In this document: positions 8,640 to 23,431 of the stretch, one piece after another
Numbering within the stretch: position 1 is the stretch's first letter
Layout of the letters: the number at the start of each line of letters is the position of its first letter
Source of the DNA: Flavobacterium chilense
GTDB lineage: Bacteria; Bacteroidota; Bacteroidia; Flavobacteriales; Flavobacteriaceae
Direction of reading: 5' to 3'
Assembly (NCBI RefSeq): GCF_001602525.1
Contig: NZ_LSYT01000009.1
Span: 62,001 to 126,000, forward strand
DNA: 64,000 bases
Made by a program: the position numbers and the translations under genes
The notes under the pieces: model-generated
What the model was told of the DNA's origin: nothing
Database searches by the model: none
What the model saw: only the letters and a program-made list of their open reading frames with translations

Positions 8640-8751
8640 GTTTAAATAGTAATTCGATAGAAAATATAGAATTTTAACTTATTTTTAAAAAATCCATGTT
8701 TTCCTTATACCTTTTTTGACTAATTTTAGATGAACTAAAAAATATATTATT

Positions 8752-9390
8752 ATGTCAACATTAAGATTAGGAGATATCGCTCCAGATTTTCATGCAGAAA
8801 CAACCGAAGGACCAATCCAATTTCATGAATGGTTAGGAGATTCCTGGGGAGTTTTATTTTCGCATCCTGCAGATTTTACCCCTGTTTGTACCACTGAATT
8901 AGGAACAGTTGCTAATTATGTTCCGGAATTTAAAAAAAGAAATACAAAAGTAATTGCTTTGAGCGTTGATGGTCTTGAATCTCATAAAGAATGGATTAAA
9001 GATATTAACGAAACCCAAAATACAACAGTTAATTTCCCGATAATTGCTGATGAGGATAAAAAAATCGCAACGTTATACGATATGTTGCATCCAAATGCGA
9101 GTGAGAAATTTACAGTTCGTTCTGTTTTTGTGATTGGACCGGATAAAAAAATAAAACTGACTTTAACGTATCCTGCTTCAACCGGAAGAAATTTTGAAGA
9201 GTTGCTTCGTGTTATTGATAGTTTGCAATTAACAGCTAATTATAGTGTAGCAACTCCGGCCAACTGGAAAGACGGAGAAGATGTAGTGATTACGCCTGCT
9301 GTTCCGGATAGCGATATTCCGGCGAAATTTCCAAAAGGACACACTCCGATTAAACCTTATTTGAGAATGACTCCGCAGCCAAATAAATAA
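8752..9390 (+). CDS. 1-Cys peroxiredoxin (Prx6 type)
   Basis: 212 residues. The peroxidatic motif HPADFTPVCTTELG has Cys46 as the only cysteine in the protein, so it is a true 1-Cys enzyme needing an external thiol; bacillithiol is a candidate since BshC is encoded at 59114. The C-terminal arm with NWKDGEDVVITP and FPKGH is typical of Prx6. It reduces H2O2 and alkyl hydroperoxides in the cytoplasm. Followed by an 8-bp-period repeat that can fold as a hairpin (9391-9459). Confidence 0.94.
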   Translation: MSTLRLGDIAPDFHAETTEGPIQFHEWLGDSWGVLFSHPADFTPVCTTELGTVANYVPEFKKRNTKVIALSVDGLESHKEWIKDINETQNTTVNFPIIADEDKKIATLYDMLHPNASEKFTVRSVFVIGPDKKIKLTLTYPASTGRNFEELLRVIDSLQLTANYSVATPANWKDGEDVVITPAVPDSDIPAKFPKGHTPIKPYLRMTPQPNK

Positions 9391-9459
9391 GATTCTAAGC
9401 GACTAAGTTTCTAAGATGCTAAGAGTTGATCTCTTAAAAAGCTTAGAAACTTAGCACTT
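9391..9459. repeat. Octamer-period intergenic repeat, copy 1
   Basis: Left half is four units ending CTAAG spaced 8 bp apart; right half is the complementary CTTAGnnn series. CTAAGTTTCTAAG (9403-9415) pairs exactly with CTTAGAAACTTAG (9442-9454). It sits between convergent genes and may act as a bidirectional terminator. Confidence 0.75.
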
Positions 9460-9467
9460 TAGTAAGT

Positions 9468-11717
9468 TTACATAGGTATATTAACGCTCTTTTTGGTTAA
9501 TTCGTTCATTCGTTTTTTGTCACCAACCACCCAGATAATATCATTTTTTTCCAGGATTATATGAGATTCCGGATTTAAAATACGATTACCGTTTCGTTCA
9601 ATTCCCACAACAAGTCCGCCTGTTTTTTCTCTAAACTGACCAATCCTTTTTTGGACAAACTGTTCATTCGAAATCTCTAATTGACGCAATACGATTTCAG
9701 ATTCATCTACGTTTTTCGCAGCTTCAACCTGATTTTGTAAATAATTGGTAAACTGCGTAATTTGCTCATCGGTACCAATAACACAAATTTCGTCACCCGG
9801 AAATAAACGTTCATTTTTGGTTGGAATCGAGATGGTAATTTCACCACGCCTGATAAAAGCAATATTGATTCCCATATTCTCTCTGATTCGTAATTCTTCT
9901 AAAGTTTTTCCAGCAAGATTAGATTCTTTTCCAATATCAAAAATAGACATGTGACCGTCCCAAGGCATTAAATTGGCATATCTTCGGTCGATTTTTTTGT
10001 TTTCGCGATCGTTTAGATTTTTTAAAAAGTGATTTTCGATTTTATGATATTGTTCGTTTAATTTTTTAGGGAATAATTGATACACTCCAATCGCAATGAT
10101 TAAGGCAACAAAAGCCACTAAAGGAGAGAAGAAAATATTCAATAAGAAACCAACGAAAAATAATCCAAGGCTCATTCTAATTAAAATAAGCATTAAAATT
10201 GCACCACGGTATTTTCGTTCTTCCCATAATTCATCCACTTCTGCAACTTTTACACGTCGTAAGGAAAGTGCCCATAAAAACGGAGCAATGACAACCAAAG
10301 TAATCAGGGCAGCCAAAGTATTTCCAAAACGGGTATCAGCAACCAAAGGCGCTACAAATTTTGATGATAATAAAATAATAGCGGTAATAATAATAGTGTG
10401 CAATATGATTTGTGTGATAGAAGCACGAAGTACAATTTGCCAGGTGCTTACAGATTTTATCGCTTGTGCATTCACACTATAACGGTTGATGTTTTTAATC
10501 CATTTTTTAGGTAGTTTTTGTTCTAAATATCCGGAAAACGGATCAGAGTATTTGATTAAAAACGGAGTTGTAAATGTGGTGATTGCTGATACGGCAACAA
10601 TTATGGGATATAAAAAATCGCTGGTTACTTTAAGTGTCATTCCAAGAGTGGCAATAATAAAAGAGAACTCACCAATTTGTGCCAAACTCATTCCGGTCTG
10701 AACAGATTGTTTTAAAGGCTGTCCGGATAATAATGCTCCGATGGAAGAACTAAATGCTTTTCCAAAAATAGTCAGCAATGTTATTAATGCAACAGGAAGT
10801 GCATAAGTAATCAACGTTTCCGGATTAATCAACATTCCGACAGATACAAAGAAAACAGCACCAAAGAGATCTTTTACCGGCTGAATCAAATGTTCTATTT
10901 TTTCTGCCTGAGTAGTTTCTGCAATAATAGATCCCATGATAAAAGCACCAAGGGCAGGTGAGAAGCCTACATTGGCAGCAAACATAACCATCATTAAACA
11001 AAGTGCCAATGAAATAATCAATAACATTTCATCTGTCAAAAGGTGTTTTGCTTTTTTTAGAATTGTTGGAATAATAAAGATTCCGCCTAAAAACCATATA
11101 ATTAGAAAGAACACTAATTTTAAAACGGATTGCAATAAAGCTCCGCCCGAAACCTGATCGCTTACTGCAATTGTAGATAATAAAACCAGCATTAAGATGG
11201 CTACAATATCTTCAACAATTAAGGCACCAAATACAATTCCGGCAAACTTTTTTCCTTTAACACCGAGTTCATCAAAGGCACGAATAATAATAGTCGTAGA
11301 CGAGATAGAAAGTGTAGCGCCAAGAAAAATACTGTCCATTTTGGCCCATCCCATCCATTGCCCGACACAATACCCAATGAGGGTCATAAAAAGGATTTGG
11401 GTTATGGCTGTTATAGAGGATGTTCCGCCCACTTTCATGAGTTTCTTGAAACTAAATTCGAGTCCTAAACTAAACAATAAAAAGATTACCCCAATTTCTG
11501 CCCAGACTTCAACACTTTTCATGTCTGTGATTGAAGGAAAAAAGTCAAAATGGTTTCCGGCTAAAAATCCTGCAATCAAATAACCTAAAACCAGAGGTTG
11601 TTTTAGTTTCTTAAATAATAAGACAGCAATTCCTGCCGTCATCAGGATTAAACCTAAGTCGCTAATGAGAGGTTGCAAGTGGTGTGTAGTTTCTGCAGCG
11701 GCGTTTAAGGCAATCAT
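9468..11717 (-). CDS. CPA2 cation:proton antiporter (KefB-like) with two C-terminal RCK_C domains
   Basis: 749 residues. Residues 1-385 form a Na+/H+-exchanger domain of CPA2 type (PLVLGYLIAGFLAG; EIGVIFLLFSLGLEF; GALIVEDIVAI; SPALGAFIMGSIIAE). A further hydrophobic block spans about 425-550. The tail holds two TrkA_C/RCK_C domains (about 575-650 and 670-745), each with a GD(E)-I or N-DIIWVVG ending. Unlike KefB/KefC there is no NAD-binding RCK_N domain. It probably exchanges K+ or Na+ for H+ at the inner membrane, gated by a ligand bound to the RCK_C pair. Confidence 0.9.
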   Translation of the reverse strand: MIALNAAAETTHHLQPLISDLGLILMTAGIAVLLFKKLKQPLVLGYLIAGFLAGNHFDFFPSITDMKSVEVWAEIGVIFLLFSLGLEFSFKKLMKVGGTSSITAITQILFMTLIGYCVGQWMGWAKMDSIFLGATLSISSTTIIIRAFDELGVKGKKFAGIVFGALIVEDIVAILMLVLLSTIAVSDQVSGGALLQSVLKLVFFLIIWFLGGIFIIPTILKKAKHLLTDEMLLIISLALCLMMVMFAANVGFSPALGAFIMGSIIAETTQAEKIEHLIQPVKDLFGAVFFVSVGMLINPETLITYALPVALITLLTIFGKAFSSSIGALLSGQPLKQSVQTGMSLAQIGEFSFIIATLGMTLKVTSDFLYPIIVAVSAITTFTTPFLIKYSDPFSGYLEQKLPKKWIKNINRYSVNAQAIKSVSTWQIVLRASITQIILHTIIITAIILLSSKFVAPLVADTRFGNTLAALITLVVIAPFLWALSLRRVKVAEVDELWEERKYRGAILMLILIRMSLGLFFVGFLLNIFFSPLVAFVALIIAIGVYQLFPKKLNEQYHKIENHFLKNLNDRENKKIDRRYANLMPWDGHMSIFDIGKESNLAGKTLEELRIRENMGINIAFIRRGEITISIPTKNERLFPGDEICVIGTDEQITQFTNYLQNQVEAAKNVDESEIVLRQLEISNEQFVQKRIGQFREKTGGLVVGIERNGNRILNPESHIILEKNDIIWVVGDKKRMNELTKKSVNIPM

Positions 11718-11846
11718 AAGGTGGTATTTTTTTGTTCAGGGGTTTATTTGTTTTTGTATTGCAGGTTTTATTTCAAATAGCTATTGTTTTGAGCAATAAG
11801 TTTTTTGAATGCAATTCAGGCTCATTTATTAACAAGATTTGTAAAT

Positions 11847-11878
11847 AAAAAAAGCTATCGATAAAGATAGCTTTTTTT
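11847..11878. terminator. Terminator of purB
   Basis: AAAAAAAGCTATC (11847-11859) pairs with GATAGCTTTTTTT (11866-11878) around a 6-nt loop. It lies 23 nt beyond the purB stop on the minus strand. Confidence 0.9.
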
Positions 11879-11900
11879 GATAAAATATTTTAGGTTTTCT

Positions 11901-13247
11901 TTAAATTCCCACGTAATTAGCAGGAGTTATTGCTAATAATTCGGCTCTGATTTCATCAGAAACCTCTAAAGTAGCAATGAAATTATGAATTGCTTTTTTA
12001 TCGATTGCTTCATTGGTTCTGGTTAAACCTTTTAATGCTTCATATGGATTTGGATATGCTTCACGACGCAAAATAGTCTGAATAGCCTCAGCAACTACTG
12101 CCCAGTTTTTCTCTAAATCTTCAGCAAATTTACTTTCATTCAAAAGCAATTTGTTCAAACCTTTTAGAGATGCTTCAAAAGCAATAATAGTATGTCCCAT
12201 TGGCACTCCAATATTACGTAAAACAGTACTGTCTGTTAAATCACGCTGTAATCTTGAAACCGGTAATTTAGCAGCTAAATGTTCAAAAATAGCATTCGCA
12301 ATTCCTAAATTTCCTTCAGAGTTTTCAAAATCAATCGGGTTTACTTTATGTGGCATTGCAGAAGATCCAATTTCTCCGGCTTTGATTTTTTGTTTAAAAT
12401 AATCCATCGAAACATACGTCCAGATATCACGATCTAAATCGATAATGATGGTATTGATTCTTTTTAAAGCATCAAAAAATGCCGCAAAATGATCATAATG
12501 TTCAATTTGAGTAGTTGGAAATGAGTGATGTAAACCTAAATCTGTTTCAACAAATTTATTCCCAAATTGTTTCCAGTCAATTTGTGGATATGCTACATGA
12601 TGCGCGTTGTAGTTTCCTGTAGCTCCACCAAATTTTGCAGCAAAAGGAATATTAAACAACAAACGCATTTGCTCTTCTAAACGCTCTACGAAAACCAAAA
12701 TTTCTTTACCCAAACGAGTAGGAGATGCAGGTTGTCCGTGCGTACGTGCCAACATTGGAATAGCTGCCCATTCGACACTTAATTCTTTCAATTTTGAAAT
12801 TAAAGCAATTAAAGAAGGCATATAAACCTGCTCAAACGCTTCTTTTGTAGAAAGCGGAATCGCAGTATTGTTAATATCCTGAGACGTTAACCCAAAGTGA
12901 ATAAACTCTTTGTACTGAGATAAACCTAATTTTTCAAAAGCATCTTTGATAAAGTATTCCACCGCTTTTACGTCGTGATTGGTTACTTTTTCCGTTTCTT
13001 TAATCCAAAGAGCATCTTCGGTAGAGAAATTTTTATAGATGTTACGTAAGCTGTCAAATAAATTTGAATCTACACCTTTAAGTTGTGGTAAAGGAACTTC
13101 GCACAAAGCAATAAAATATTCGACTTCAACTAATACACGGTATTTGATTAAAGCTTCTTCAGAGAAAAATGGTGCTAATGAAAGGGTTTTACTTCTATAT
13201 CTTCCGTCAATTGGTGATATAGCATTCAGTTCGTTTAGAGTAGTCAT
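11901..13247 (-). CDS. purB: Adenylosuccinate lyase
   Basis: 448 residues. The fumarase/aspartase-superfamily signature GSSAMPHKVNP is present, as are HFGLTSQDIN, ARTHGQPASPTRLGKE and SPIDGRY at the N-terminus, which is diagnostic for PurB. The enzyme releases fumarate from adenylosuccinate and from SAICAR in purine synthesis. The gene appears monocistronic, with a TATATTTG box 26 nt upstream and a strong terminator downstream. Confidence 0.97.
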   Translation of the reverse strand: MTTLNELNAISPIDGRYRSKTLSLAPFFSEEALIKYRVLVEVEYFIALCEVPLPQLKGVDSNLFDSLRNIYKNFSTEDALWIKETEKVTNHDVKAVEYFIKDAFEKLGLSQYKEFIHFGLTSQDINNTAIPLSTKEAFEQVYMPSLIALISKLKELSVEWAAIPMLARTHGQPASPTRLGKEILVFVERLEEQMRLLFNIPFAAKFGGATGNYNAHHVAYPQIDWKQFGNKFVETDLGLHHSFPTTQIEHYDHFAAFFDALKRINTIIIDLDRDIWTYVSMDYFKQKIKAGEIGSSAMPHKVNPIDFENSEGNLGIANAIFEHLAAKLPVSRLQRDLTDSTVLRNIGVPMGHTIIAFEASLKGLNKLLLNESKFAEDLEKNWAVVAEAIQTILRREAYPNPYEALKGLTRTNEAIDKKAIHNFIATLEVSDEIRAELLAITPANYVGI

Positions 13248-13272
13248 TGTTATGTTGTTTTTTCGAAAGGTG

Positions 13273-13280
13273 CAAATATA
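13273..13280 (-). promoter_or_regulatory. Candidate -7 box of purB
   Basis: TATATTTG on the minus strand matches the Bacteroidota consensus TAnnTTTG and ends 26 nt before the purB ATG. No clear TTG -33 box at the expected distance. Confidence 0.45.
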
Positions 13281-13338
13281 AGCTATTGTTAAAACTTCTG
13301 AAAATTACCGAAGCGTTATTATGGTAGAAACTAATAAA

Positions 13339-14031
13339 TTAAATTCTTGTTTTAAAAATTTTATCCCAGATCGTAAAATAAAAACCAAAATTATGGGATT
13401 CGTTTTTATGGTGATCAGCATGAAATTTCGTGGTTGAAATCCATTTGGTAATTTTGCTTTGGTACCAAAAATCAGGAAATAAATCTGTTTTTAAATGCCC
13501 GAAGATTCCATACGACAGGTTTAATATAAGATATATGATAATGCTGATGAAATTAAAATGCAATACCGTAATCGAAGTTAACCATATCAGGCCAAAGCCT
13601 AATGTTTCTATCGGATGAAGTACATACAGGCTGTAAACACTGGTTTCAACATGAGTATGATGCAGTTGGTGAATGGCATAAAACCATTTTAAATGATGCA
13701 CCAGATAATGAAAACAAAACATAAAGAAATCCATTACCACAATCAACAGTAATGTATCTAACAGGATATTCAGGATTGAAGGTGTAAAATCTATTTTGAT
13801 GATTCCAAACTCATACAATTTGTATCCTAAAAGTGTGATGAATGTATTGCAAATAAGAGTTGAAAAAATCCATTTCCGGTCTTTTTTGAGAAGTTTGGTG
13901 TTTTCATATTCTATTAATTTTCCTAATAGTACCGAAAGAAAAATTAGTATTGCATTTTCTGCCAGAAAGAAAATGAATAGTACCAATAGATTAAACTGCG
14001 ATAATTGTTGTAACCAGCTTTCGAATATCAT
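13339..14031 (-). CDS. Sterol desaturase/fatty acid hydroxylase family membrane protein
   Basis: 230 residues with several membrane helices and the full set of di-iron histidine motifs: HxxxHH (HYLVHH, 108-113), HxxHH (HQLHH, 121-125) and HADHH near 204-208. Bacterial members hydroxylate or desaturate lipids such as carotenoids, fatty acids or sphingolipid-like chains; the substrate is unknown here. Its ATG overlaps the stop of the sirtuin gene by 4 bp (ATGA), so the two are translationally coupled. Confidence 0.88.
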   Translation of the reverse strand: MIFESWLQQLSQFNLLVLFIFFLAENAILIFLSVLLGKLIEYENTKLLKKDRKWIFSTLICNTFITLLGYKLYEFGIIKIDFTPSILNILLDTLLLIVVMDFFMFCFHYLVHHLKWFYAIHQLHHTHVETSVYSLYVLHPIETLGFGLIWLTSITVLHFNFISIIIYLILNLSYGIFGHLKTDLFPDFWYQSKITKWISTTKFHADHHKNESHNFGFYFTIWDKIFKTRI

Positions 14032-14729
14032 GAAATTTTTTCTGTTTCAAATAATCTGTCTCTTAATTCTGCCACACCTTCTGAAGCAACTTTTGCAATC
14101 ACCCCGACTTTATTCTGAATATGCGGAATTGAAATTGGCTTTGGATCAATGTAAAAAACCGGAGTTGTACTGTAGGTATACGAAATCAGGCCTGCAGCGG
14201 GATATACCTGTAAAGAAGTTCCAATTACGGCAAAATAATCAGCATCTTCAGTAATTTCGATTGCACGTTCTAAAGCCGGGACATCTTCGCCAAACCAAAC
14301 AATATGAGGTCGTAGCTGATGTCCGTTTTTATCCAGATCACCAGTAAATAAATCATCCTGCCAGTCCAGAATTAAATCTTTGTTTTGTGTACTTCTTGCT
14401 TTTAGTAATTCACCATGTAAATGAAGAATTTTTGTACTTCCGGCACGTTCGTGTAAATCATCAACATTTTGAGTAATAATATATACATCAAAATGCTGTT
14501 CCAGTTCGGCTAAAATATAATGTCCTAAATTAGGTTTTACCTCTTTGAGCTGTTGACGTCTTTTGTTGTAAAAGTCTAAAACCAATTCCTGATTTTTACG
14601 CCAGCCTTCGGGAGTGGCAACTTCCATTACATCATGACCTTCCCATAAACCATCACTGTCACGGAAAGTTTTAATTCCGCTTTCGGCACTAATTCCGGCG
14701 CCGGTCAATACAACAAGTTTCTTTTTCAT
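14028..14729 (-). CDS. cobB: SIR2 family NAD-dependent protein deacylase
   Basis: 233 residues. Motifs of the sirtuin fold are present: GAGISAESGIKTFRD for NAD binding, ITQNVDDLHERAG, the catalytic His in HLHGE, RPHIVWFGEDVP and GTSLQVYPAAGL. The four zinc Cys are absent (no CxxC pair), as in some short class III/U bacterial sirtuins. It removes acetyl, succinyl or related groups from lysines. First gene of a two-gene unit with the fatty acid hydroxylase. Confidence 0.92.
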   Translation of the reverse strand: MKKKLVVLTGAGISAESGIKTFRDSDGLWEGHDVMEVATPEGWRKNQELVLDFYNKRRQQLKEVKPNLGHYILAELEQHFDVYIITQNVDDLHERAGSTKILHLHGELLKARSTQNKDLILDWQDDLFTGDLDKNGHQLRPHIVWFGEDVPALERAIEITEDADYFAVIGTSLQVYPAAGLISYTYSTTPVFYIDPKPISIPHIQNKVGVIAKVASEGVAELRDRLFETEKIS

Positions 14730-14902
14730 GCTACTACAATTAAAAGATAAAAATAGTGATTTACAAATCTGATTTTATAAAAAAGCAGGACTTATTATGA
14801 TTTAAATAATTTTTAATCATCAATAAAAGCGTAATTATACTTATTGTTAGAATCCTGCAAATTTTTTAATTTTAATGTGGAGTAAAATAAAAGGACTTTA
14901 TA

Positions 14903-15436
14903 ATGATTTTAATTCAGTTTACAGGATTATCAGGCTCAGGAAAAACGACCCTGGCAGAAAATGTTCGTTCTTTGTTAGTAGAGAATGGGTACAGAGCCGA
15001 AGTTGTTGACGGAGATGTGTATCGTGCAACTATTTGTAAAGATCTCGGATTTTCTAAAGAAGACCGTTGCGAGAACGTAAGACGGCTTTTTAAGGTGGGA
15101 CAAAATTTTGTCGATTCTGATACTATAGTTTTAATGTCTGTGATCAATCCGTATGAGAATCTGAGAAACGAGATAAGAGAATATAAGTTTGTACGAACTG
15201 TATTTTTAGATTGTGCCCTTGATAATCTAATACAACGAGATCCAAAAGGGCTTTACAAAAAAGCATTGCTTCCGGATCATGATCATAATAAGATCAATAA
15301 TTTTACGGGAATAAGCGATGTTTTCGAAACTCCGGTCAATACTGATCTAGTCCTGAAAACGGATTCTGAAACAGTTTCTTTTTCAACAAATAAATTATAT
15401 CATTTCATAATCGACAATTTAACTCAGACAGTTTGA
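14903..15436 (+). CDS. Adenylylsulfate (APS) kinase
   Basis: 177 residues, a complete stand-alone APS kinase that makes PAPS from APS and ATP. Walker A GLSGSGKTT (8-16), DGD (36-38) followed by KDLGFSKEDRCENVRR, NPYENLRNEIRE, the signature RDPKGLYKK (112-120), and FTGISDVFETP all match CysC. No ATP sulfurylase or sulfate reduction gene is nearby. It is followed at 39 nt by a dioxygenase gene and then a PAPS-dependent sulfotransferase gene on the same strand, suggesting PAPS made for a dedicated sulfation rather than for assimilation. Confidence 0.9.
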   Translation: MILIQFTGLSGSGKTTLAENVRSLLVENGYRAEVVDGDVYRATICKDLGFSKEDRCENVRRLFKVGQNFVDSDTIVLMSVINPYENLRNEIREYKFVRTVFLDCALDNLIQRDPKGLYKKALLPDHDHNKINNFTGISDVFETPVNTDLVLKTDSETVSFSTNKLYHFIIDNLTQTV

Positions 15437-15475
15437 TACATCTGGCTTGTAAACTAACTTAATTCTTTATATGGT

Positions 15476-16159
15476 ATGAATCCTTCTTCCTGTAAACTTC
15501 CGGTTTCCTTTTCTATCGATAAATTGCATAAAGATTTAGTAATCTGCGAAAATGATTTATGGACACCTCATTTTAATACCAATAGATACGAAGGCAATTG
15601 GACCAGTATTTCTCTACGGTCACATTCTGGATTAACGACTGATATTTTATCGTTTCCGGACAAAGAATATACGAATACCAATTTGCTTGACCGCTGCCAT
15701 TATTTTAAGGAAATTATGGATTGGTTTCAGTGTGACAAAGAAGCCGTAAGATTGCTCAGACTTGATCCGCAAAGCGAAATTAAAGAACATGTTGATAATG
15801 ATACTTCTTACGAAGATGGTTTTTTTAGAATTCATGTACCCATTATAACAAACTCTGAAGTGTTTTTCTATGTAGATAAAAAACGCGTTCCTATGGAAAT
15901 GGGTGAATGCTGGTATGCTAATTTTCAGCTTCCGCATAGTGTAGAAAACAGAAGCTACAAACCACGTATTCATCTTACGCTGGATTGTGTCAGAAACGAT
16001 TGGTCTGATGAACTATTCAGTAAAATGGGATTTGATATCAATCTGACGACAAAACAAAATAATTATACAGATAAAGTAAAACAGCAAATTATTGCCGAAC
16101 TTTCTCTTAATCCATCTGAAACAAGTGCTAAAATTATTGCAGATTTATTAGCCCAATAA
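15476..16159 (+). CDS. Aspartyl/asparaginyl beta-hydroxylase-like Fe(II)/2-oxoglutarate dioxygenase
   Basis: 227 residues. The core (about 95-175) has the AspH-family pattern: LLRLDPQSEIKEHVDND with the HxD metal pair (H105, D107), FRIHVPI, the distal His in LPHSVENRS (H154), and RIHLTLD carrying the 2-oxoglutarate Arg (R164). Such enzymes hydroxylate the beta carbon of Asp/Asn or related side chains. A 50-residue helical tail follows the core. It lies between the APS kinase and the sulfotransferase (10 nt before the latter), so hydroxylation followed by sulfation of the new hydroxyl is a natural hypothesis. Confidence 0.82.
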   Translation: MNPSSCKLPVSFSIDKLHKDLVICENDLWTPHFNTNRYEGNWTSISLRSHSGLTTDILSFPDKEYTNTNLLDRCHYFKEIMDWFQCDKEAVRLLRLDPQSEIKEHVDNDTSYEDGFFRIHVPIITNSEVFFYVDKKRVPMEMGECWYANFQLPHSVENRSYKPRIHLTLDCVRNDWSDELFSKMGFDINLTTKQNNYTDKVKQQIIAELSLNPSETSAKIIADLLAQ

Positions 16160-16169
16160 AATATACATA

Positions 16170-17138
16170 ATGAAAAATAACAATCATCCGCTTTTAAATT
16201 GGATTCCTTATAAACTAATAGAAAACGATCAGGAGGTTTATTTTGAATGGATTTATTTATCTGATAATGAATACGCCGAACCGTTTTTTGATGAAACAAT
16301 AGCAATTTGTAAAAGTCATTCTTATAATTCAAGTAGATTTAAAATAGTAAGCACTGTAGAAAATCTTATTGATTGGTCTGTACAATTAGAGTCAGTCGAA
16401 TTAAGATCGTTGGTTTTTCATGTATCACGATGTGGTTCTACCATGCTGAGTCAATCATTAGCAACAACATCAGAAAATATAATGATTTCTGAAGCACCTG
16501 TTATTGATCAGATTTTAAGAAGTGAACTTTTTACTGAAGATCAAAAAAGTGTTCTTTTAAAATCGACATTACAAATATTAGGTCAAAAACGATTTCTGGA
16601 GCAAAAGCATCTTATTATCAAACTAGATGCCTGGCATATTTTTAAAGCTTCGTACTTAAGATCACTTTTTCCTGAAATTCCGTTTGCACTGCTTTACAGA
16701 AATCCGACAGAGGTTTTAAAATCTCATCAAAAAATGGCAGGAATGCACATGGTTCCTAATCTGTTGCCTGCAGCAGTTTTTGGAATTTCGACAGAAGAAA
16801 TTAATCAAATAAGCTTTTGGCAATATGGTGCATTGGTATTAGAAAAGTATTTCCAGGGATTTATTGATTTTTATGAGAGTGATAAAAATGTAGTAATCCT
16901 TAATTATAATGATGGTATGAATCAGGTTATAGAAAGATTTTTGTCTTTTATTGCTGCTGACTATTCCGGTAATGAACAGAATAAAATGTATGATCGCCTT
17001 AAAAGCCATTCAAAAGATAAAAATGCCGTTTTTACTGGTGATGTTTATAAAAACGAAGCTTTAGAAATAGATTTTACAAAGGTTAATAAGCTACACGAAA
17101 AGTTAAATAACAACCTGATTGAATATGTAGAAAGTTGA
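16170..17138 (+). CDS. PAPS-dependent sulfotransferase family protein
   Basis: 322 residues. The 5'-phosphosulfate-binding loop is FHVSRCGSTML (83-93), a Cys-containing form seen in bacterial sulfotransferases. The 3'-phosphate-binding segment FALLYRNPTEVLKSH (172-186) supplies the Arg and Ser that bind PAPS. The N-terminal 75 residues are variable and likely bind the acceptor. The gene is the third in the APS kinase-dioxygenase-sulfotransferase run. Acceptor unknown: a peptide, protein side chain, lipid or small molecule are all possible. Confidence 0.85.
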   Translation: MKNNNHPLLNWIPYKLIENDQEVYFEWIYLSDNEYAEPFFDETIAICKSHSYNSSRFKIVSTVENLIDWSVQLESVELRSLVFHVSRCGSTMLSQSLATTSENIMISEAPVIDQILRSELFTEDQKSVLLKSTLQILGQKRFLEQKHLIIKLDAWHIFKASYLRSLFPEIPFALLYRNPTEVLKSHQKMAGMHMVPNLLPAAVFGISTEEINQISFWQYGALVLEKYFQGFIDFYESDKNVVILNYNDGMNQVIERFLSFIAADYSGNEQNKMYDRLKSHSKDKNAVFTGDVYKNEALEIDFTKVNKLHEKLNNNLIEYVES

Positions 17139-17177
17139 AAATTGGGATGATTTTTTCATTCTGTTTTATTTATGATG

Positions 17178-17185
17178 TATTTTTG
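17178..17185 (+). promoter_or_regulatory. Candidate -7 box of the SpoU methyltransferase gene
   Basis: TATTTTTG, 20 nt before the ATG at 17206, fits TAnnTTTG. It suggests the methyltransferase gene has its own promoter and is not part of the sulfation unit. Confidence 0.35.
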
Positions 17186-17205
17186 CCTCAAAATAAAATA
17201 TTAAA

Positions 17206-17868
17206 ATGATTGATTTAGATTACCTCGCTTTCCTTGAAAACATATTGACAGACAACCGTAAAGAAAAATTTCTAAAAGTATTAGAAAACCGTACGAAACA
17301 TTTTACTATTGCAGTCGAAGATGTTTTTCAGATGCATAATACAAGCGCAGTAATGCGCAGTTGTGAGGTTTTTGGAATTCAGGAACTTAATATTATTGAG
17401 CAGCGTTTTGGAAAAAGAATCGATAAAGAGATTGCTTTGGGGGCGCAAAAGTGGGTAGATATCAACAGATTTGATACCGTAGACGCCTGTATCTCATCTT
17501 TACGCAATAAAGGATATCAAATTATTGCAACTACACCACATGAAAACGATTGTATGATTCAGGATTTTGATATCACAAAACCAAGCGCCTTATTTTTTGG
17601 AACTGAAAAAGACGGACTTTCACCTGAAATCCTTGAAAAAGCAGATGGTTTCTTAAAAATACCAATGGTAGGCTTTACAGAAAGTTTAAATATTTCTGTT
17701 TCTGCAGCCATCATCATTCAAAACCTAACTAACAGATTGCGAAATTCAGACATAGACTGGCATTTGTCAGACGAAGAAATACTGGAGAAGCGTCTGGTTT
17801 GGGCTAAAAATTCAATTAAAGATATTAAGAGAATCGAAGCACGTTATTATCAGGAGAATCCTAAATAA
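17206..17868 (+). CDS. trmH: TrmH/SpoU family tRNA (guanosine-2'-O-)-methyltransferase
   Basis: 220 residues with the SPOUT knot motifs: HNTSAVMRSCEVFGIQELN (motif 1 with catalytic Arg), FFGTEKDGLSPEILEKAD (motif 2) and IPMVGFTESLNISVSAAI (motif 3). This matches the TrmH branch that methylates G18 of tRNA with S-adenosylmethionine. The C-terminal extension of about 40 residues is typical of TrmH. A 24-bp perfect stem follows (17894-17945). Confidence 0.88.
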   Translation: MIDLDYLAFLENILTDNRKEKFLKVLENRTKHFTIAVEDVFQMHNTSAVMRSCEVFGIQELNIIEQRFGKRIDKEIALGAQKWVDINRFDTVDACISSLRNKGYQIIATTPHENDCMIQDFDITKPSALFFGTEKDGLSPEILEKADGFLKIPMVGFTESLNISVSAAIIIQNLTNRLRNSDIDWHLSDEEILEKRLVWAKNSIKDIKRIEARYYQENPK

Positions 17869-17893
17869 TATTCTTGCTACTGAACTTAAAAAG

Positions 17894-17945
17894 TCAGCCC
17901 CGAATTCACGAATATTTATTAAAATATTCGTGAATTCGGGGCTGA
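17894..17945. terminator. Very strong bidirectional terminator
   Basis: A perfect 24-bp inverted repeat with a 4-nt loop: arms begin TCAGCCCCGAATTCACGAAT (17894 onwards) and end at 17945. It separates the convergent trmH and YARHG genes. Confidence 0.9.
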
Positions 17946-17956
17946 AAAATTAAAAA

Positions 17957-18856
17957 TTACCTTCCAAACGAATCGTAATTGTCTTCGGCGTATTTTTCAA
18001 AACGTTTTAATAATACAATGTTTTCTTTTTCGACTGCGGTTAATTCATCGTTTACATTGTCTGAAACAGGAATATACCACTCCACACTATCAAAAAACTG
18101 ACGAACTGTTTTGGTTTTAAATGTTAGTCCGTGTCTTGCAAAAATGGTATTTCTTAGAATCTCTAAATCAATTTTCTTTAAATTTTTTAAATCCGATTCT
18201 TTTAATTTTTTTGTAGATGAATTTATGGTCACAATACTTTCTGATGCTGCTCTGTATACAGTTTCCATATAGGTTTCGGTTCCTTTATCTGCTTCTGTGC
18301 CGTCTTCATTTTCTGAATCAGTTACTTGTTCCTCTTTTGGATTTTCATAATCGATATACATTCCTTCTTCCGGAAGCATCACATTAGGATCATATTTAAA
18401 TTCTTTTTTAGTAAGTTCAAATTTTCTTTTGGTAACTTCTTTTTTTAGATTATTGGCAGTCCAGGTTCCAACTAAAAGGTTATCATTTTTTATTTCAAAA
18501 TCAAAAACGCCATCATTTTTATCATCGCCCGGTTCTTTAAGTATAAAAAGAACCGTATTTCCTTTTGTGGTCATTGTACCTGTAAGTGGTCTGCTATTAC
18601 CGGCAACAATACTTTGTCCAGTCACTTCAGTATCTGTAATTTTTTTAATAACAATATTGATCTTATTGATGTAATTTTCTTTTGCAGGTCTGCTGGTATC
18701 GCGTTCTAAAATAGTAAAATCACCAACGTATGAACCGTATAAATCTGTTCTAATTTCTTTTGGCAGATCTTCGGTACTGCTTTTTACGATTTTATTTTCT
18801 TTCGAATTACAGGAAAATAGCAGTATTGATACTAATAAACAAAAAAGGTGTTTCAT
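17957..18856 (-). CDS. YARHG domain lipoprotein
   Basis: 299 residues. Lipobox LFSC (Cys16) follows a short hydrophobic signal. Residues 30-150 look like a beta-rich lipocalin-like module describing an extracytoplasmic domain, then an acidic linker with many Glu/Asp/Thr (about 175-190). Residues 200-290 are a YARHG domain with the signature FARHGLTF followed by FDSVEWYIP and the end DNYDSFGR. Function of YARHG is unknown; it is thought to be an extracellular module. The start overlaps the stop of the DUF2306 gene by 4 bp. Confidence 0.83.
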   Translation of the reverse strand: MKHLFCLLVSILLFSCNSKENKIVKSSTEDLPKEIRTDLYGSYVGDFTILERDTSRPAKENYINKINIVIKKITDTEVTGQSIVAGNSRPLTGTMTTKGNTVLFILKEPGDDKNDGVFDFEIKNDNLLVGTWTANNLKKEVTKRKFELTKKEFKYDPNVMLPEEGMYIDYENPKEEQVTDSENEDGTEADKGTETYMETVYRAASESIVTINSSTKKLKESDLKNLKKIDLEILRNTIFARHGLTFKTKTVRQFFDSVEWYIPVSDNVNDELTAVEKENIVLLKRFEKYAEDNYDSFGR

Positions 18857-19488
18857 TTTTTTAATTGATTATAGAGATAATATTCAGCGATTAATAAATT
18901 AGGAATCCAGCCCAGCCAGGCAATAATCTGATACAGATCCATTGGTGAAGGATGAAACAAATATACAAGAATGACTTTCCAGAAACGTAATGTGACAGCA
19001 GAAAAGGTTAGGGCAAAACTTCGCAACATAAATGCTTTGTGCTTTGTGATATTTTTGTTTTTTATCGCCGTAAAACCCTTGATAGTAAAGTAAAACCACA
19101 GAATCGACAATGTAACAAATGAGATTTTAGAGTAAAGTCCGCCATTGGCAAAAAGCCCAATAAACAATCCTGAAGGTGCACTTAAAAAAAGCACTGTCAG
19201 GACATAAAATTTCCCAATATTTCGATGTGCTACAGGATATTTTTTTAAAAGAACAGCACTGAACTGGAAGAATCCGGCGAGTAAAACAAAAATTGCCGAA
19301 TAGACATGAATGTAAAAGAAAGTTATATAAAACGGAATTTCAGAAACTTCTGTCTGTTTGATTTGAAGAAAAGCAGCATCTTTTTTTAATGGAACATACT
19401 GCCACGTGAGCTGTAACATTAAAACAAAGAAATAACTAAAAAGGATGGTCCAGATTAATAGCAATGAAAACCGAATATTTTTTTTCAA
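18853..19488 (-). CDS. DUF2306-type membrane protein
   Basis: 211 residues with about six hydrophobic helices and conserved His residues within or near them (FYIHVYSAIFVLLAG, HRNIGKFYVL, KHKAFMLRS), the pattern of DUF2306, a possible haem or quinone-binding membrane family. The start is TTG at 19488, since no in-frame ATG exists before the first helix. Overlaps the YARHG gene (ATGA), implying coupled translation. Confidence 0.75.
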   Translation of the reverse strand: MKKNIRFSLLLIWTILFSYFFVLMLQLTWQYVPLKKDAAFLQIKQTEVSEIPFYITFFYIHVYSAIFVLLAGFFQFSAVLLKKYPVAHRNIGKFYVLTVLFLSAPSGLFIGLFANGGLYSKISFVTLSILWFYFTIKGFTAIKNKNITKHKAFMLRSFALTFSAVTLRFWKVILVYLFHPSPMDLYQIIAWLGWIPNLLIAEYYLYNQLKK

Positions 19489-19528
19489 TCTTTTCTTGTA
19501 AAGGTTTTATTAGTTATCAAATATAGAA

Positions 19529-19558
19529 AATCCCCAATTACCAAAGCAATTGGGGATT
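19529..19558 (-). terminator. Terminator downstream of the copper-unit genes
   Basis: AATCCCCAATT (19529-19539) pairs with AATTGGGGATT (19548-19558) across an 8-nt loop. T-rich on the minus-strand 3' side. Confidence 0.75.
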
Positions 19559-19569
19559 AGTATTTTTTT

Positions 19570-19677
19570 TAGAGATTCTAAGAAGCTGAGGTTCTAAGGG
19601 ACTAAGTTTTTTAATTATCTAACAACTAAAGATACCTTTGCAGCTTTGAACCTTTGTACCTCTGAACCTAAAAAGAC
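19570..19677. repeat. Octamer-period intergenic repeat, copy 2
   Basis: The left part has 8-bp units ATTCTAAG, AAGCTGAG, GTTCTAAG, GGACTAAG. The right part (from about 19634) has the unit series CTTTGCAG, CTTTGAAC, CTTTGTAC, CTCTGAAC. Lies downstream of the outer-membrane protein gene. Confidence 0.7.
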
Positions 19678-19687
19678 TCAGAACCTT

Positions 19688-20647
19688 TTACAAAGTATAA
19701 TTCAAATTAATACTCCATCTGTAATTGGCTTCCATGTTTCCATTTGACAAATTTTGACTAATAGGCAACATAGCGTTTACACCAACCGAAAATTTATCTT
19801 TTCCTGCTTCTATACCAAATTTTCCAAACAAAATATCTCCGGCTGTATTGGGTAAATCAAGATTGTGCTGTTTGTTAGTTTGATACATTTCGCCGGCTAA
19901 ACCAGCTTGCGGAACAATCTGAACCGACTTTAAATCAAATAAGTAAAAAAATGTTCCGGCATAATTAAACTGATCTCCGTATTGGTAATTTTTACTGTTT
20001 TCTGTTTTAAAAATGTAATTTAAAGTTGTGTTTAATCCCAGATTTTTATGTTTGATCACATATTCAGTAACCAACGGAAAATCCCAGCTTCCGGTTCCTA
20101 ACTGAAAACTCTGGTTGATTGTTCCCAGATTATTTGTCTCTTTAAACTTTCCTGTAGGTATTTTGACTCCACCTCCAATATTTAATTTATGAGACAAAAA
20201 AGTACTGTCTTTTTTAGTTTCATAAATAGTATAAAGTCCCATAATGGTGATATCTCCTAAACCTTCAATACTTTGAGTTCCGGCAGTAAGTTGTCGTTCA
20301 TGAAAATGATATGGAACGAGGGTCGAAATCTGAACTTTCTCAGTAACAGGAATACGTGCCCAGGCCTGGATGGTATTAAAATTTTCATCAATCCATGGTG
20401 AATTGGCAAAAATCCCGTCACGACTGGTGTAGCTTTGTTTAAAGTATCTCAAACCCACAAAATTATTGTTCAGCATTGAGCTAAACCCCATACTTCCTCC
20501 ACTAGCCGAACAACCACAAGCGTCACAGTCAAAATCTTCCATCATAGCCAGACGCTGAAAGGTAAAAACTGAAACACTATCTTTTACTGTGAAACTAAAG
20601 GCCGAAAAACCAGCCAAAAGGGCGAACATTACTATTATTTTTTTCAT
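19688..20647 (-). CDS. Outer-membrane beta-barrel protein with N-terminal Cys motif, copper-unit partner
   Basis: 319 residues. A signal peptide precedes a short mature N-terminus with the motif CDACGCSASGGSMG (Cys41, 44, 46), likely a metal site. The rest alternates in amphipathic strands (LVPYHFHE, NIGGGVKIPTGKF, ending NYRWSINLNYTL with a terminal aromatic-x-Leu), as in transporter-like outer-membrane barrels. It is the last gene after an MbnP-like protein and an MbnH-like peroxidase on the same strand. A role in metal (copper) passage or sensing is inferred, not shown. Confidence 0.7.
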   Translation of the reverse strand: MKKIIVMFALLAGFSAFSFTVKDSVSVFTFQRLAMMEDFDCDACGCSASGGSMGFSSMLNNNFVGLRYFKQSYTSRDGIFANSPWIDENFNTIQAWARIPVTEKVQISTLVPYHFHERQLTAGTQSIEGLGDITIMGLYTIYETKKDSTFLSHKLNIGGGVKIPTGKFKETNNLGTINQSFQLGTGSWDFPLVTEYVIKHKNLGLNTTLNYIFKTENSKNYQYGDQFNYAGTFFYLFDLKSVQIVPQAGLAGEMYQTNKQHNLDLPNTAGDILFGKFGIEAGKDKFSVGVNAMLPISQNLSNGNMEANYRWSINLNYTL

Positions 20648-20660
20648 TTTTATTTTTTTT

Positions 20661-20803
20661 AGGAGCTAATCCCGCTTTCCGTTGCAAGCTTTTCTCAAAA
20701 TCCCATTTTTCCATAAGTTTATTCAGCTTCCGCTGGTCGCTTAATAAACTCAGAAAAAATAAGGTCTTTTTTCAAAAAGGCTTTTCACTTCAATCGGGGC
20801 TAA
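20661..20803 (-). repeat. Dispersed structured repeat, copy B (long form)
   Basis: On the minus strand: TAGCCCCGATTGAAGTG, CCTTTT, a long variable middle with a stem AGTTTATT/AATAAACT (20716-20750), then AACGGAAAGCGGGATTAGC and TCCT. Same ends as copies A, C and D but 143 nt because of the enlarged middle hairpin. It lies between the peroxidase and barrel genes. Confidence 0.75.
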
Positions 20804-20829
20804 GACTCCGGTTTTCATTATAATTTTAT

Positions 20830-20866
20830 TTTTTGCTACCCCAGACAGCTATCGGGAGTGGCAAAA
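20830..20866 (-). terminator. Hairpin directly after the peroxidase gene
   Basis: TTTTGC ... GCAAAA outer stem with an inner imperfect ACTCCC/GGGGT stem; it begins 4 nt beyond the stop at 20870. May give partial termination before the barrel gene. Confidence 0.55.
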
Positions 20867-20869
20867 GTG

Positions 20870-21910
20870 TTAATATTCTGAAAAACGTTTATCCGTAAGA
20901 TATTGTTGATCGGTTAACGTTTTCAGGAAAGCTATTATTTGTTTTTTGTCTGTTTCAGAAAGTGAAATTCCTAATTTTCCATTCTGTTTTAATATCGGAT
21001 CTAAGGTTGCCGAATTTTCTATGCCACTTTCATAATGATCCAAAACACCTTCCAGAGTTCCAAATCTTCCATCGTGCATATAAGGTCCGGAAACTTCTAC
21101 ATTTCGTAAACTGGGTACTTTAAATTTATAATAATCACTTGCCAGTTCCGTCACTTTATAACGCCCAACATCATTTACCATTGGATTTACTGCTAAACCA
21201 TTATTGCGAAATGAATTATCAGTTTGTAAATCTGTAGCATGACATGAAGCACATTTAGATTTAAATAAATCATATCCTGCCAATTCATCAGCAGTTAAAG
21301 TGCCACCGGTTTCATGGCGTCTGTATTTATCAAATCGGGAGTTTGATGAGGTTACCATAACCATAAATTGCGAAAGTGCTTTTAGCATGTTTTCGGTTGT
21401 AATCGCGCCATCGTCAAAAGCCTGTCCAAATAATTTTTGGTACTCTTTGTCGGCTTTCATCATTTTTAGAATAGCATTCAGATCGCCATTCATTTCGATA
21501 ACGCTCTTAAGCGGAATAAGCGGCTGTAAGTCTAAATGATCTGCGGCTCCGTCGTACATAAATACGGTTTGATAAGCCAGATTTTGAATAGATGGTGTGT
21601 TTCTTGTTCCTTGTGCATTGTCTACACCATGGCTTACAGTGTGTCCGTGATGTGTAAATGCATTCGCCTGAATATGACAAAAACCGCAGGAAACGACTCC
21701 ATCAGACGCTAAACGTCCGTCGTAAAACAGTTTTTTTCCCAGTTCAAATCCTTTTTCTGTTGGCGGATTCTGTGCTATGTTATACGCTAAAGCAGGAAAG
21801 TTTGACGGAACAGTAAATTCTAACGGGATATTTACATATTCGTCCTCCTGATTAGAGCAGCTCCACAACAACGGAATCATGAGCCATAGAAAATATTTTA
21901 TTTTCTGCAT
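20870..21910 (-). CDS. Dihaem cytochrome c peroxidase family lipoprotein (MbnH/MauG-like)
   Basis: 346 residues. Signal with lipobox LWSC (Cys18). Two haem c sites: CGFCH (75-79) and CASCH (220-224); YMHDGRFGTLEGVLDHYESG near the C-terminus is the MauG/CcpA distal region. Next to an MbnP-like gene this points to the MbnH branch, which in Methylosinus oxidises a Trp of MbnP to kynurenine to build a copper site. Classical CcpA peroxide detoxification is the alternative. Flanked on both sides by repeat copies B and C in opposite orientation. Confidence 0.88.
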   Translation of the reverse strand: MQKIKYFLWLMIPLLWSCSNQEDEYVNIPLEFTVPSNFPALAYNIAQNPPTEKGFELGKKLFYDGRLASDGVVSCGFCHIQANAFTHHGHTVSHGVDNAQGTRNTPSIQNLAYQTVFMYDGAADHLDLQPLIPLKSVIEMNGDLNAILKMMKADKEYQKLFGQAFDDGAITTENMLKALSQFMVMVTSSNSRFDKYRRHETGGTLTADELAGYDLFKSKCASCHATDLQTDNSFRNNGLAVNPMVNDVGRYKVTELASDYYKFKVPSLRNVEVSGPYMHDGRFGTLEGVLDHYESGIENSATLDPILKQNGKLGISLSETDKKQIIAFLKTLTDQQYLTDKRFSEY

Positions 21911-21947
21911 GATTTCTTTGGTTTTTTAGAAGCACAAAAGTTCTTAT

Positions 21948-22016
21948 CTAGCCCCGATGGGAGTGATATCCTTTTATGACAGGGTTTGGCATAAAAGATA
22001 TAACGGACAGCGGGAC
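21948..22016 (+). repeat. Dispersed structured repeat, copy C
   Basis: CTAGCCCCGATGGGAGTG, ATATCC, hairpin TTTTATG ... CATAAAA, then TATAACGGACAGCGGGA. Inverted relative to copy B, so that B and C bracket the peroxidase gene. Confidence 0.75.
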
Positions 22017-22060
22017 AATATTTCTATTGAATGCTGACTTTTGTGCTCCTTAAAATAAAT

Positions 22061-22861
22061 TTAGTCGTTGTGTACGTGATCTACTCTAAACATGCCGTTG
22101 ATGTTTTGGGTAATTAACGGCAAATTAGCTCCGCCCATAATCATTGCGCCCATTCCGCCTGCATTGTTGTCAGAAAGTTTGATTTTGTTTGTTCCGTCTA
22201 TGATTTTAGACAAATCAGTAATTAAGTGAACCTCAGGGGTAATAGTAGTACGTACCAAAGCTTTTGTAGGCATATCAAGTGTTACTTCGGTATAATTGTA
22301 ATCGGTTCCGGTTTTCCCTGTATGAATCATGAAAGGTGTTGCAGTTGTAACTGTTGGAGATGTAAAAGTTCCTTCGAAAGCCAAAAATTTGTAACCTGCT
22401 GCCCACGACCACATCATGCCTGCTGCATCGGCTTTAGCCAGAAAATCTCCCTGACCTGAAGCGCCTAATTTCCATTGGTCTTCATCAACTCCAACTCCAA
22501 ATTTTACTTTTACATAATCTCCTGCCGGAACGTCTGTAAGTTCAAATTCATGGCCGTCAGTTGATGCTTCATCAGCAATAAAATAGCTTTTACTTTTTGG
22601 ATATGTAAAAGTAGTTCCGTCTGCTTTGGTTAAAACCACATTACTGATTATGTATTTTATGGTGCTTATCTTTAAAATTTCGTTGTTTGAGGTTTTGTTT
22701 CCCTGAGTATTTAAAATAAGATCGTTTGCTCCGTAAGCATTATCAAATTCCAGGATAATTTTTCCGTTTCCGGAAACTTCCTGATTATCGTCGTTAGAAC
22801 ATGAAGTCAGAGCAATAGAAAGTGCTACAATAGCAAGTGCTTTGTATAAAGTATTTTTCAT
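22061..22861 (-). CDS. MbnP-like copper-binding lipoprotein
   Basis: 266 residues from the ATG at 22861; an in-frame ATG 57 nt earlier would put 19 charged residues before the signal peptide and is rejected. Lipobox LTSC (Cys21). The core has the MbnP-family hallmarks: FSI-like strand KIILEFDNAYGANDL, LKISTIKYIISNVVLTK, GVGVDEDQW, the aromatic segment MMWSWAAGYKFL (Trp151, Trp153), and a His-ending C-terminus FRVDHVHND. In characterised MbnP a Trp is converted to kynurenine by MbnH and helps bind Cu(I). The partner peroxidase is the next gene. Confidence 0.85.
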   Translation of the reverse strand: MKNTLYKALAIVALSIALTSCSNDDNQEVSGNGKIILEFDNAYGANDLILNTQGNKTSNNEILKISTIKYIISNVVLTKADGTTFTYPKSKSYFIADEASTDGHEFELTDVPAGDYVKVKFGVGVDEDQWKLGASGQGDFLAKADAAGMMWSWAAGYKFLAFEGTFTSPTVTTATPFMIHTGKTGTDYNYTEVTLDMPTKALVRTTITPEVHLITDLSKIIDGTNKIKLSDNNAGGMGAMIMGGANLPLITQNINGMFRVDHVHND

Positions 22862-22977
22862 TTTATGAATTTTATATAATTTGATTTTAAATTTAGACAT
22901 GCGTAAACGCGTTTTCATTGATTTTGAAACAATGAAAATTGGATTTCAATTATGAAAATGAAATCTGATTTAAAAAA

Positions 22978-23355: not shown

Positions 23356-23378
23356 GACTTGTTTCGTTGTTTCGAATG

Positions 23379-23386
23379 CAAAAATA
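23379..23386 (-). promoter_or_regulatory. Candidate -7 box of the copper unit
   Basis: TATTTTTG on the minus strand, 24 nt before the TTG start of the small Cys protein; fits TAnnTTTG. Confidence 0.4.
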
Positions 23387-23431
23387 CATTTTATTATTTT
23401 TAATCATGATGATTTTTGTCATTTAACATAA

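Follow-up and report, generated by a model that had tools for sequence, protein, structure and literature searches.

A predicted APS kinase, dioxygenase and sulfotransferase module in Flavobacterium and its association with phage-tail-collar proteins ending in asparagine

The window analysed here, a 64,000-nucleotide stretch of the Flavobacterium chilense contig NZ_LSYT01000009.1, carries three adjacent same-strand genes for an adenosine 5'-phosphosulfate (APS) kinase, a dioxygenase of the Asp/Asn hydroxylase family, and a sulfotransferase predicted to depend on 3'-phosphoadenosine 5'-phosphosulfate (PAPS) (Table 1). The open reading frames (ORFs) lie as given in a preliminary description of this DNA, with gaps of 39 and 10 nucleotides, and the motifs reported there are intact: RDPKGLYKK in the kinase, HxD...H...R in the dioxygenase, and HVSRCGST together with RNPTEVLKSH in the sulfotransferase. 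The hydroxylase co-occurs with, and in some other genomes lies beside, genes for small proteins of the phage-tail-collar family (PF07484), whose C-terminal asparagine may be the residue that is modified.

Table 1. Features of the window; positions are counted from its first nucleotide.
Feature	Positions	Strand	Basis or remark
APS kinase (CysC-like, 177 aa)	14903-15436	+	PF01583, TIGR00455; predicted PAPS supplier to the sulfotransferase
Asp/Asn-hydroxylase-family Fe(II)/2-oxoglutarate dioxygenase (type I, 227 aa)	15476-16159	+	PF05118
PAPS-dependent sulfotransferase (322 aa)	16170-17138	+	AlphaFold model, fold matches, conserved HVSRCGST loop
Fatty-acid-hydroxylase-family gene	13339-14031		Beside SIR2; Pfam
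Flavo-1 RNA match	5114-5191
Flavo-1 RNA match	20664-20805
Flavo-1 RNA match	21946-22021
Flavo-1 RNA match	55243-55318
DUF805b RNA match	3224-3259

The kinase matches PF01583 (8.6e-43, 146.4 bits, cut-off 21.1) and TIGR00455 (162.9 bits, cut-off 138.7), carries a GLSGSGKTT Walker A motif in addition to RDPKGLYKK, and is the sole PF01583 member found in the genome. In a survey of 80 genomes picked to span the classes, with APS kinase counted at E 1e-10, all 25 sulfotransferase-positive genomes contained exactly one APS kinase, located at most 2.5 kb from the sulfotransferase, whereas 52 of the 55 sulfotransferase-negative genomes contained none. The kinases of the three remaining negative genomes are of a different kind, scoring 217 to 226 bits compared with 135 to 148 bits in the positives. 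CysH and CysD are encoded on another contig of the genome (C9), and this CysH is of the CC...CXXC kind, which we take to mark APS reductases, enzymes that need no APS kinase. No sulfate-reduction gene was seen by eye among the ORFs listed for window positions 8000-26000. The trio kinase belongs to the same enzyme family as the cysC product of sulfate assimilation but differs from it in genomic context, distribution and fusions, and the kind of CysH and the absence of the kinase from 52 of 55 relatives do not fit an assimilatory role. The earlier statement that the kinase stands outside an assimilation operon is thus borne out. A CysC that is alone in its genome and co-regulated with assimilation had been named as a sign against the module; the kinase is indeed alone, but it follows the sulfotransferase (25/25 compared with 3/55). 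The kinase is dedicated rather than assimilatory and would serve the sulfotransferase.

The dioxygenase is the only member of PF05118 (Asp_Arg_Hydrox) found in the genome (6.9e-16, 58.9 bits, cut-off 22.6), and H105-x-D107, H154 and R164 are invariant in eight aligned sequences. The structural model (predicted local distance difference test, pLDDT, 84.7) and the profile both match best to the L-proline cis-4-hydroxylase 4p7w (6.8e-18). The substrates of its solved relatives, proline cis-4- and 3-hydroxylases, are free amino acids, and a residue at a C-terminus, whose carboxylate is likewise free, would fit such an enzyme. PF05118 also holds LpxO and OlsC and covers lipid and free-amino-acid hydroxylases, and AspH modifies residues of EGF domains inside a chain. 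The trio hydroxylase has the fold, the HxD...H...R motif and the family score in common with AspH, 4p7w, LpxO and OlsC, whereas its proposed target is a protein C-terminus and the AspH site is internal; we know of no PF05118 enzyme that acts on a protein C-terminus. Prophage cargo was rejected as an explanation, since a tblastn search of 50,697 phage records, made with the hydroxylase only, found no match.

The sulfotransferase scores 18.8 bits against PF13469, below the cut-off of 27, and two of its relatives reach or exceed this value (L103, 29.7 bits; L265, 27 bits). Its AlphaFold model has a pLDDT of 88.4, and the ten best Foldseek matches are tyrosylprotein sulfotransferases (TPSTs; 1.1e-5), weak matches with query template-modelling (TM) scores of 0.38 to 0.44; STF9 and SULT structures were also matched. 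That the nearest folds belong to enzymes acting on proteins favours a protein substrate. In an alignment of 12 sequences, made without the rows having an internal stop (L038 and L044), F83, H84, S86, R87, C88, G89, S90 and T91 of the HVSRCGST loop are invariant. The model indicates that the enzyme has the PAPS-sulfotransferase fold with a 5'-phosphosulfate-binding loop. It resembles TPSTs in this fold and in the protein substrate proposed below, and differs from them in the low similarity (TM approximately 0.4, 15 to 18% identity) and in the proposed acceptor, a hydroxylated Asn instead of Tyr. RaxST is the bacterial comparison for TPSTs, and the trio sulfotransferase is set apart from both by its partners, a hydroxylase and an APS kinase of its own. 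Two plasmid searches with the sulfotransferase as query turned up distant records, 3 in one search and 1 in the other. On the Agrobacterium plasmid pAtG3_79b (L101), a distant homologue lies amid nonribosomal peptide synthetase (NRPS), chorismate-mutase, leuCD-like, TauD and cysD/cysN/cysQ genes, a region that perhaps makes a sulfated natural product.

Among named genomes, 51 loci were found in Flavobacterium or close records, including L049 of F. johnsoniae strain CI04, together with three distant loci. In 49 of the 51 Flavobacterium-type loci the kinase gene comes first, the hydroxylase second and the sulfotransferase third (exceptions L079 and L085), and the same number share a site between SIR2 and SpoU (exceptions L079 and L083). 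The sulfotransferase is present in 60 of 398 Flavobacterium genomes; it was found in 12 of 345 genomes of a phylum sample, 10 of them in Flavobacterium, and is rare in a family sample (3/249, including this genome and two weak matches). All 46 first-type hydroxylases in the 398-genome sample start within 1.5 kb of the sulfotransferase, and together with the conserved order this indicates a grouping beyond chance. The kinase and the hydroxylase are fused in one 409-aa ORF in L077 and L120, and the kinase and the sulfotransferase in one ORF of 506 or 516 aa in L107 and L108, which have no local hydroxylase. These pairwise fusions argue for one pathway. The trio is therefore conserved in other genomes, including those of a second family of the class, in which it is linked to collar genes.

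The dedicated module for PAPS supply, hydroxylation and sulfation outside assimilation, as proposed in the preliminary description, is supported, with the correction that the operon does not always include the hydroxylase. An intact first-type hydroxylase lies beside the sulfotransferase in only 46 of the 60 sulfotransferase genomes, and the requirement for a same-operon hydroxylase was therefore rejected. Among the other 14 genomes, 12 encode a second-type hydroxylase elsewhere and G425 has a second type nearby together with a broken first-type remnant; in G638 (81% complete) no hydroxylase was found, unlike in the other 59 of the 60. The two types are mutually exclusive in sulfotransferase genomes (46 with an intact first type and 13 with the second, including G425 with its remnant), which reads as the replacement of a needed function. 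Three of the 20 hydroxylase loci fetched (L123, L137 and L138) lie in a collar cluster, and the idea that second-type hydroxylases always stand beside collar genes was consequently rejected; among the remaining 17, 13 encode an adjacent protein of 164 to 171 aa resembling an HEAGH protein of L079. This protein (L079 5510-6019) and its homologues in 16 of the 20 loci (164 to 174 aa) pair with the second-type hydroxylase, have no Pfam or NCBIfam match, and contain HEAGH in the two sequences read. Relatives of it also lie beside the whole module in L267 and L269 and near a collar gene in L232.

In L079 and L083, the Flavobacterium loci off the usual site, the module adjoins PF07484 genes, and trio and collar genes are likewise linked in L111. 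Hydroxylase, sulfotransferase and collar genes stand together in Gemmatimonadaceae (L091) and in other Bacteroidota (L103 and L104); in Sphingomonas (L089 and L090) the sulfotransferase lies beside collar genes without hydroxylase or kinase, and on a Pseudoalteromonas plasmid (L223) the hydroxylase lies 2.3 kb before three collar genes. The 398 Flavobacterium genomes include 60 with the sulfotransferase (59 of which have the hydroxylase), 91 with the hydroxylase and 158 with a collar gene. Collar genes occur in 88 of the 91 hydroxylase-positive genomes compared with 70 of the 307 negative ones, and in 30 of 32 compared with 70 of 306 when sulfotransferase genomes are excluded. In the second family of the class, the hydroxylase is present in 7 of 63 genomes, all seven of which have a collar gene, compared with 12 of the 56 others (p 9e-5). 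Co-occurrence and linkage with PF07484, as expected of an enzyme that tailors collar proteins, are thus found in both groups. The substrate was unseen in the preliminary description; a candidate can now be named, namely the tail-collar proteins that are clustered with giant surface proteins.

Four loci of the second family (L265, L267, L268 and L269) hold kinase, sulfotransferase and hydroxylase together with collar genes. Three of them also contain a periplasmic-binding-protein-like (PBP-like) gene and three a gene for a giant protein; a formyltransferase gene and a PorV-type gene are present in one locus each. Elsewhere in this family, L103 (G736) has sulfotransferase, hydroxylase and collars with no kinase in view, L270 has hydroxylase and collars, and L266 has hydroxylase and sulfotransferase at a contig end. 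A gene for a PhyH-family dioxygenase, possibly a second oxidation step, follows the APS kinase in L265 (7485-8507, identified by Pfam), L267 (7437-8456) and L269 (6963-7979; the latter two by eye). The PorV-type gene of L268 (2454-3614), a type IX secretion gene, has the hydroxylase on one side and the PBP-collar genes on the other and hints at a link to this secretion system.

The C-termini of the collar proteins were compared between 53 of the 88 Flavobacterium genomes with hydroxylase and collar and 33 of the 70 with collar only; 154 of 155 collars were kept, one 339-aa ORF (L202) being dropped by length. Across these 86 genomes, C-terminal Asn ranks first of 824 residue-by-column tests (53/53 compared with 17/33, p 1.2e-8). 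Any C-terminal Asn is found in 53/53 and 18/33 genomes, the additional genome being G556, whose sole Asn falls in a further alignment column. The ending FP[STP]RN is found in all 53 hydroxylase-positive genomes and in 5 of the 33 negative ones, and a looser ending in 53 and 9, respectively. In PBP-type clusters, 71 of 73 collars of positive genomes end in Asn compared with 3 of 11 of negative genomes. In a tree of 49 PBP-like proteins, the hydroxylase-negative genomes G605 and G301 are nested among positives, and both are without the terminal Asn: the collars of G605 end in Asp and Asp (sister G343, Asn and Asn) and that of G301 in Ser (sister G551, Asn), both pairs being well supported. G537, ending in Gln, is also nested among Asn collars, with modest support. 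Models in which hydroxylase and terminal motif depend on each other were favoured over independent ones with a likelihood ratio (LR) of 40.8 on a collar tree made without the last six residues and 22.3 on a PBP tree; the trees are gene trees and the models approximate. In the second family, 7 of 7 hydroxylase-positive and 2 of 12 negative genomes encode a collar with Asn at its end (2 of 9, p 0.003, without G1002, G971 and G985, which have only collars of odd length), and all three collars of the Pseudoalteromonas plasmid end in RN.

A crude rule for a signal-peptide-like start flagged 20 of 67 collars of hydroxylase-negative genomes and only 2 of 87 of positive genomes, and in the two flagged positives the stretch is, on reading, the domain itself. 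The collar of L160, which is hydroxylase-positive, has a longer hydrophobic N-terminus that may reflect a wrong start. Leaderless collars fit a modification in the cytosol.

Six collar genes are present in this genome, one triplet on contig C16 (L099) and another on C2 (L098). The C16 triplet is followed by a Peripla_BP_6 protein scoring below the cut-off, a formyltransferase and a giant SprB-repeat protein, whereas after the C2 triplet come genes for an acetyltransferase-like protein and for a protein of 1340 aa that combines Ig/cadherin-like domains with a type IX sorting domain. SprB repeats were detected in the giant neighbour in L099 (3.5e-107) and L083 (1.8e-119), and a type IX C-terminal sorting domain in those of L083 and L098; the stretch of L099 ended before the terminus of its protein. 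Pfam was run on these three giant proteins, and elsewhere "giant" is a working label. Tail-collar genes were seen in loci spanning Bacteroidota, Proteobacteria, Deinococcus and Paenibacillus (L098 and L099 here; L223-L234 on plasmids). Many form triplets and are accompanied by a gene of the GNAT, formyltransferase or methyltransferase-like type and by one for a giant protein that is Ig-like or made of repeats; together they apparently represent a general, unnamed system. In one of these loci, L233, a phage tail gene is close by.

We propose that the trio could be a cytosolic tailoring module that hydroxylates, and then sulfates, the C-terminal Asn of collar proteins, a reading drawn from sequence comparison that we regard as evenly poised. 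The substrate would be the small, leaderless PF07484 proteins of approximately 180 aa encoded on C16, and perhaps those on C2, in clusters shared with genes for a PBP-like protein, a formyltransferase and a giant protein that has SprB repeats and is of a kind associated with type IX secretion. CysD and CysN, encoded elsewhere, would make APS, which the trio kinase, judging from the function of its family, would convert to PAPS. The dioxygenase would hydroxylate the free C-terminal Asn of the ...FPSRN tail of the collar, as its co-variation with this residue suggests, and the sulfotransferase may then place sulfate on the new hydroxyl, the least certain of these steps. The collar would thus acquire a negatively charged end before being built, along with the giant protein, into a structure at the cell surface. 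The parts of this scheme differ in strength. The collar system is probably the target, and the C-terminal Asn is, by a slight preference, the site of hydroxylation or a feature by which the site is recognized; that the sulfate is carried by the same residue as the hydroxyl is rated at somewhat below an even chance. Tentatively, and with doubt prevailing over confidence, the whole may be a new two-step modification in which the free C-terminal Asn of a leaderless collar is hydroxylated and O-sulfated, decorating the tip of a phage-tail-like fibre that acts together with a giant SprB-type surface protein; it would be one setting of the wider, unnamed collar-tailoring system found across phyla, in which formyl-, acetyl- or methyltransferases take the place of these enzymes in other clusters.

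Several observations weigh against this proposal. The trio is unlinked to collar genes here and in most Flavobacterium (49/51 at the SIR2-SpoU site), the co-occurrence counts are raw numbers with no species-tree correction, and three genomes have the hydroxylase without a collar (G402, 93% complete; G396, 76%; G454, 70%). The collars compared at their C-termini were chosen from best E-value listings or already fetched loci, not as a random sample. From 5 (strict motif) to 18 (any Asn) of the 33 hydroxylase-negative Flavobacterium genomes keep an Asn-ending collar, as do 2 of the 12 negative genomes of the second family, and 4 of 10 hydroxylase-free plasmid collar stretches that were fetched have one such collar (L226, L227, L228 and L231). 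A third hydroxylase-negative PBP group, of five genomes, is mixed (D; N in G478, with FPSRN; G,G; S,N; N,S), and whether it represents gain or loss rests on a midpoint root. In this genome, Ser is the last residue of one of the three collars on C16, and those on C2 have the endings QN, QT and RT. No collar residue separates sulfotransferase-positive from sulfotransferase-negative genomes beyond apparent clade signal, and a sulfotransferase-specific acceptor residue was accordingly rejected. Finally, relatives of the sulfotransferase in Sphingomonas and Azospirillum occur in lasso-like clusters as well as beside collars, and the distant one in the NRPS region has no collars in view.

Hydroxylase and sulfotransferase might also serve the same collar structure without sharing a site or even a protein, an alternative that we consider unlikely but worth serious attention. 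The hydroxylase might, for instance, act on the collar and the sulfotransferase on a Tyr, Ser or Thr of the collar or on the giant protein. The nearness of the sulfotransferase model to TPSTs would be in keeping with it, and the 32 hydroxylase genomes without sulfotransferase and the kinase-sulfotransferase fusions of L107 and L108 without a local hydroxylase indicate that the steps are separable. On the other hand, 59 of the 60 sulfotransferase genomes keep a hydroxylase, a second type being present where the local one is missing or broken (elsewhere in 12 genomes and nearby in G425), which suggests that sulfation depends on hydroxylation; moreover, no Ser, Thr or Tyr of the collars marks sulfotransferase-positive genomes beyond the clade signal mentioned above.

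It is rather improbable that the product of the trio is a lipid or small molecule carrying sulfate, such as a hydroxylated fatty acid, amino acid or metabolite, and that the collar association reflects shared ancestry or genome content. In favour of this, PF05118 takes in lipid and free-amino-acid hydroxylases, the nearest solved relatives of the trio enzyme are hydroxylases of free proline, and the L101 homologue lies in an NRPS region. Such a product would leave unexpected both the presence of collar genes in the same loci, seen in Flavobacterium, other Bacteroidota, Gemmatimonadaceae and Pseudoalteromonas, and the co-variation of the hydroxylase with a single residue at the collar C-terminus.

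Still less probable is that a lasso-peptide-like ribosomal peptide is the true substrate, with the collar genes as bystanders. In L103, L089/L090 and L100 the sulfotransferase lies near asparagine-synthase-like genes and, in part, lasso B2, PqqD and HprK-like genes; precursor-like short ORFs are present in L103 (19090-19269), which also has the hydroxylase, and in L100 (15000-15215). A similar gene set, comprising lasso B2, a nucleotidyltransferase, a sulfotransferase, an Asp hydroxylase, PqqD and asparagine synthase, appears among consecutive entries of the halotolerance-associated clusters tabulated in PMC10040529. These clusters share with the trio a homologous sulfotransferase-hydroxylase pair, with collars nearby in L103, but differ in the PqqD, B2 and asparagine-synthase partners, none of which was seen among the ORFs of window positions 8000-26000 (by eye, with Pfam on six). 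Nor did L265, L267, L268 or L269 show similarity to lasso-type queries, and all four lasso-type loci carry collar genes, the feature that they have in common with the other loci. Short precursor-like ORFs, seen only in lasso-type loci, were rejected as the general substrate. The lasso-like sets with collars span L103 9433-19269 and L100 9493-20648 and also occur in L089/L090 and L229, with a sulfotransferase in all but L229; they contain an asparagine synthase and, in part, PqqD, B2, HprK-like and 2-oxoglutarate oxygenase genes, some of them named by eye. The precursor-like ORF of L103 ends in ...TGIFPRS, resembling a collar C-terminus.

That the kinase is an ordinary assimilatory CysC standing by chance beside two unrelated genes is scarcely credible and was rejected: it is the sole APS kinase of the genome, but the lack of any APS kinase in 52 of 55 sulfotransferase-negative genomes, the CC...CXXC CysH on another contig with CysD, and the fusion of the kinase to a neighbour in four genomes speak against it.

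The fatty-acid-hydroxylase-family gene of the window is present in 28 of the 51 loci compared, is split in L085, and gave no sign of module membership. A promoter scan was close to a shuffled background (22 found, 18.5 expected, sd 4.0), and a Bacteroidetes-type promoter pattern had no match.

Hydroxylation followed by conjugation of proteins is known from the glycosylation of collagen hydroxylysine and Skp1 hydroxyproline. As in these cases, a 2-oxoglutarate hydroxylase would create the acceptor for a transferase, but the proposed conjugate is sulfate, the site a C-terminal Asn and the host bacterial. In the open-access literature, among the matches listed, we found no description of the module, of its link to collars or of hydroxy-asparagine sulfation, an absence that is provisional, and the earlier remark that no named system with this combination is known holds within that scope. 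A function for tail-collar genes beside giant proteins was likewise not found among those matches. As far as found, the enzyme families are known, and the combination, the partner and the proposed site are new. If the proposal is true, C-terminal hydroxylation followed by sulfation would add a new type to the post-translational modifications of bacteria, expected as mass gains of 16 and 96 Da at the terminal residue of the collar protein. The orphan APS kinase of a common genus of soil and water would thereby gain an explanation, and there would be a first approach to the widespread tail-collar genes found next to giant repeat proteins in several phyla.

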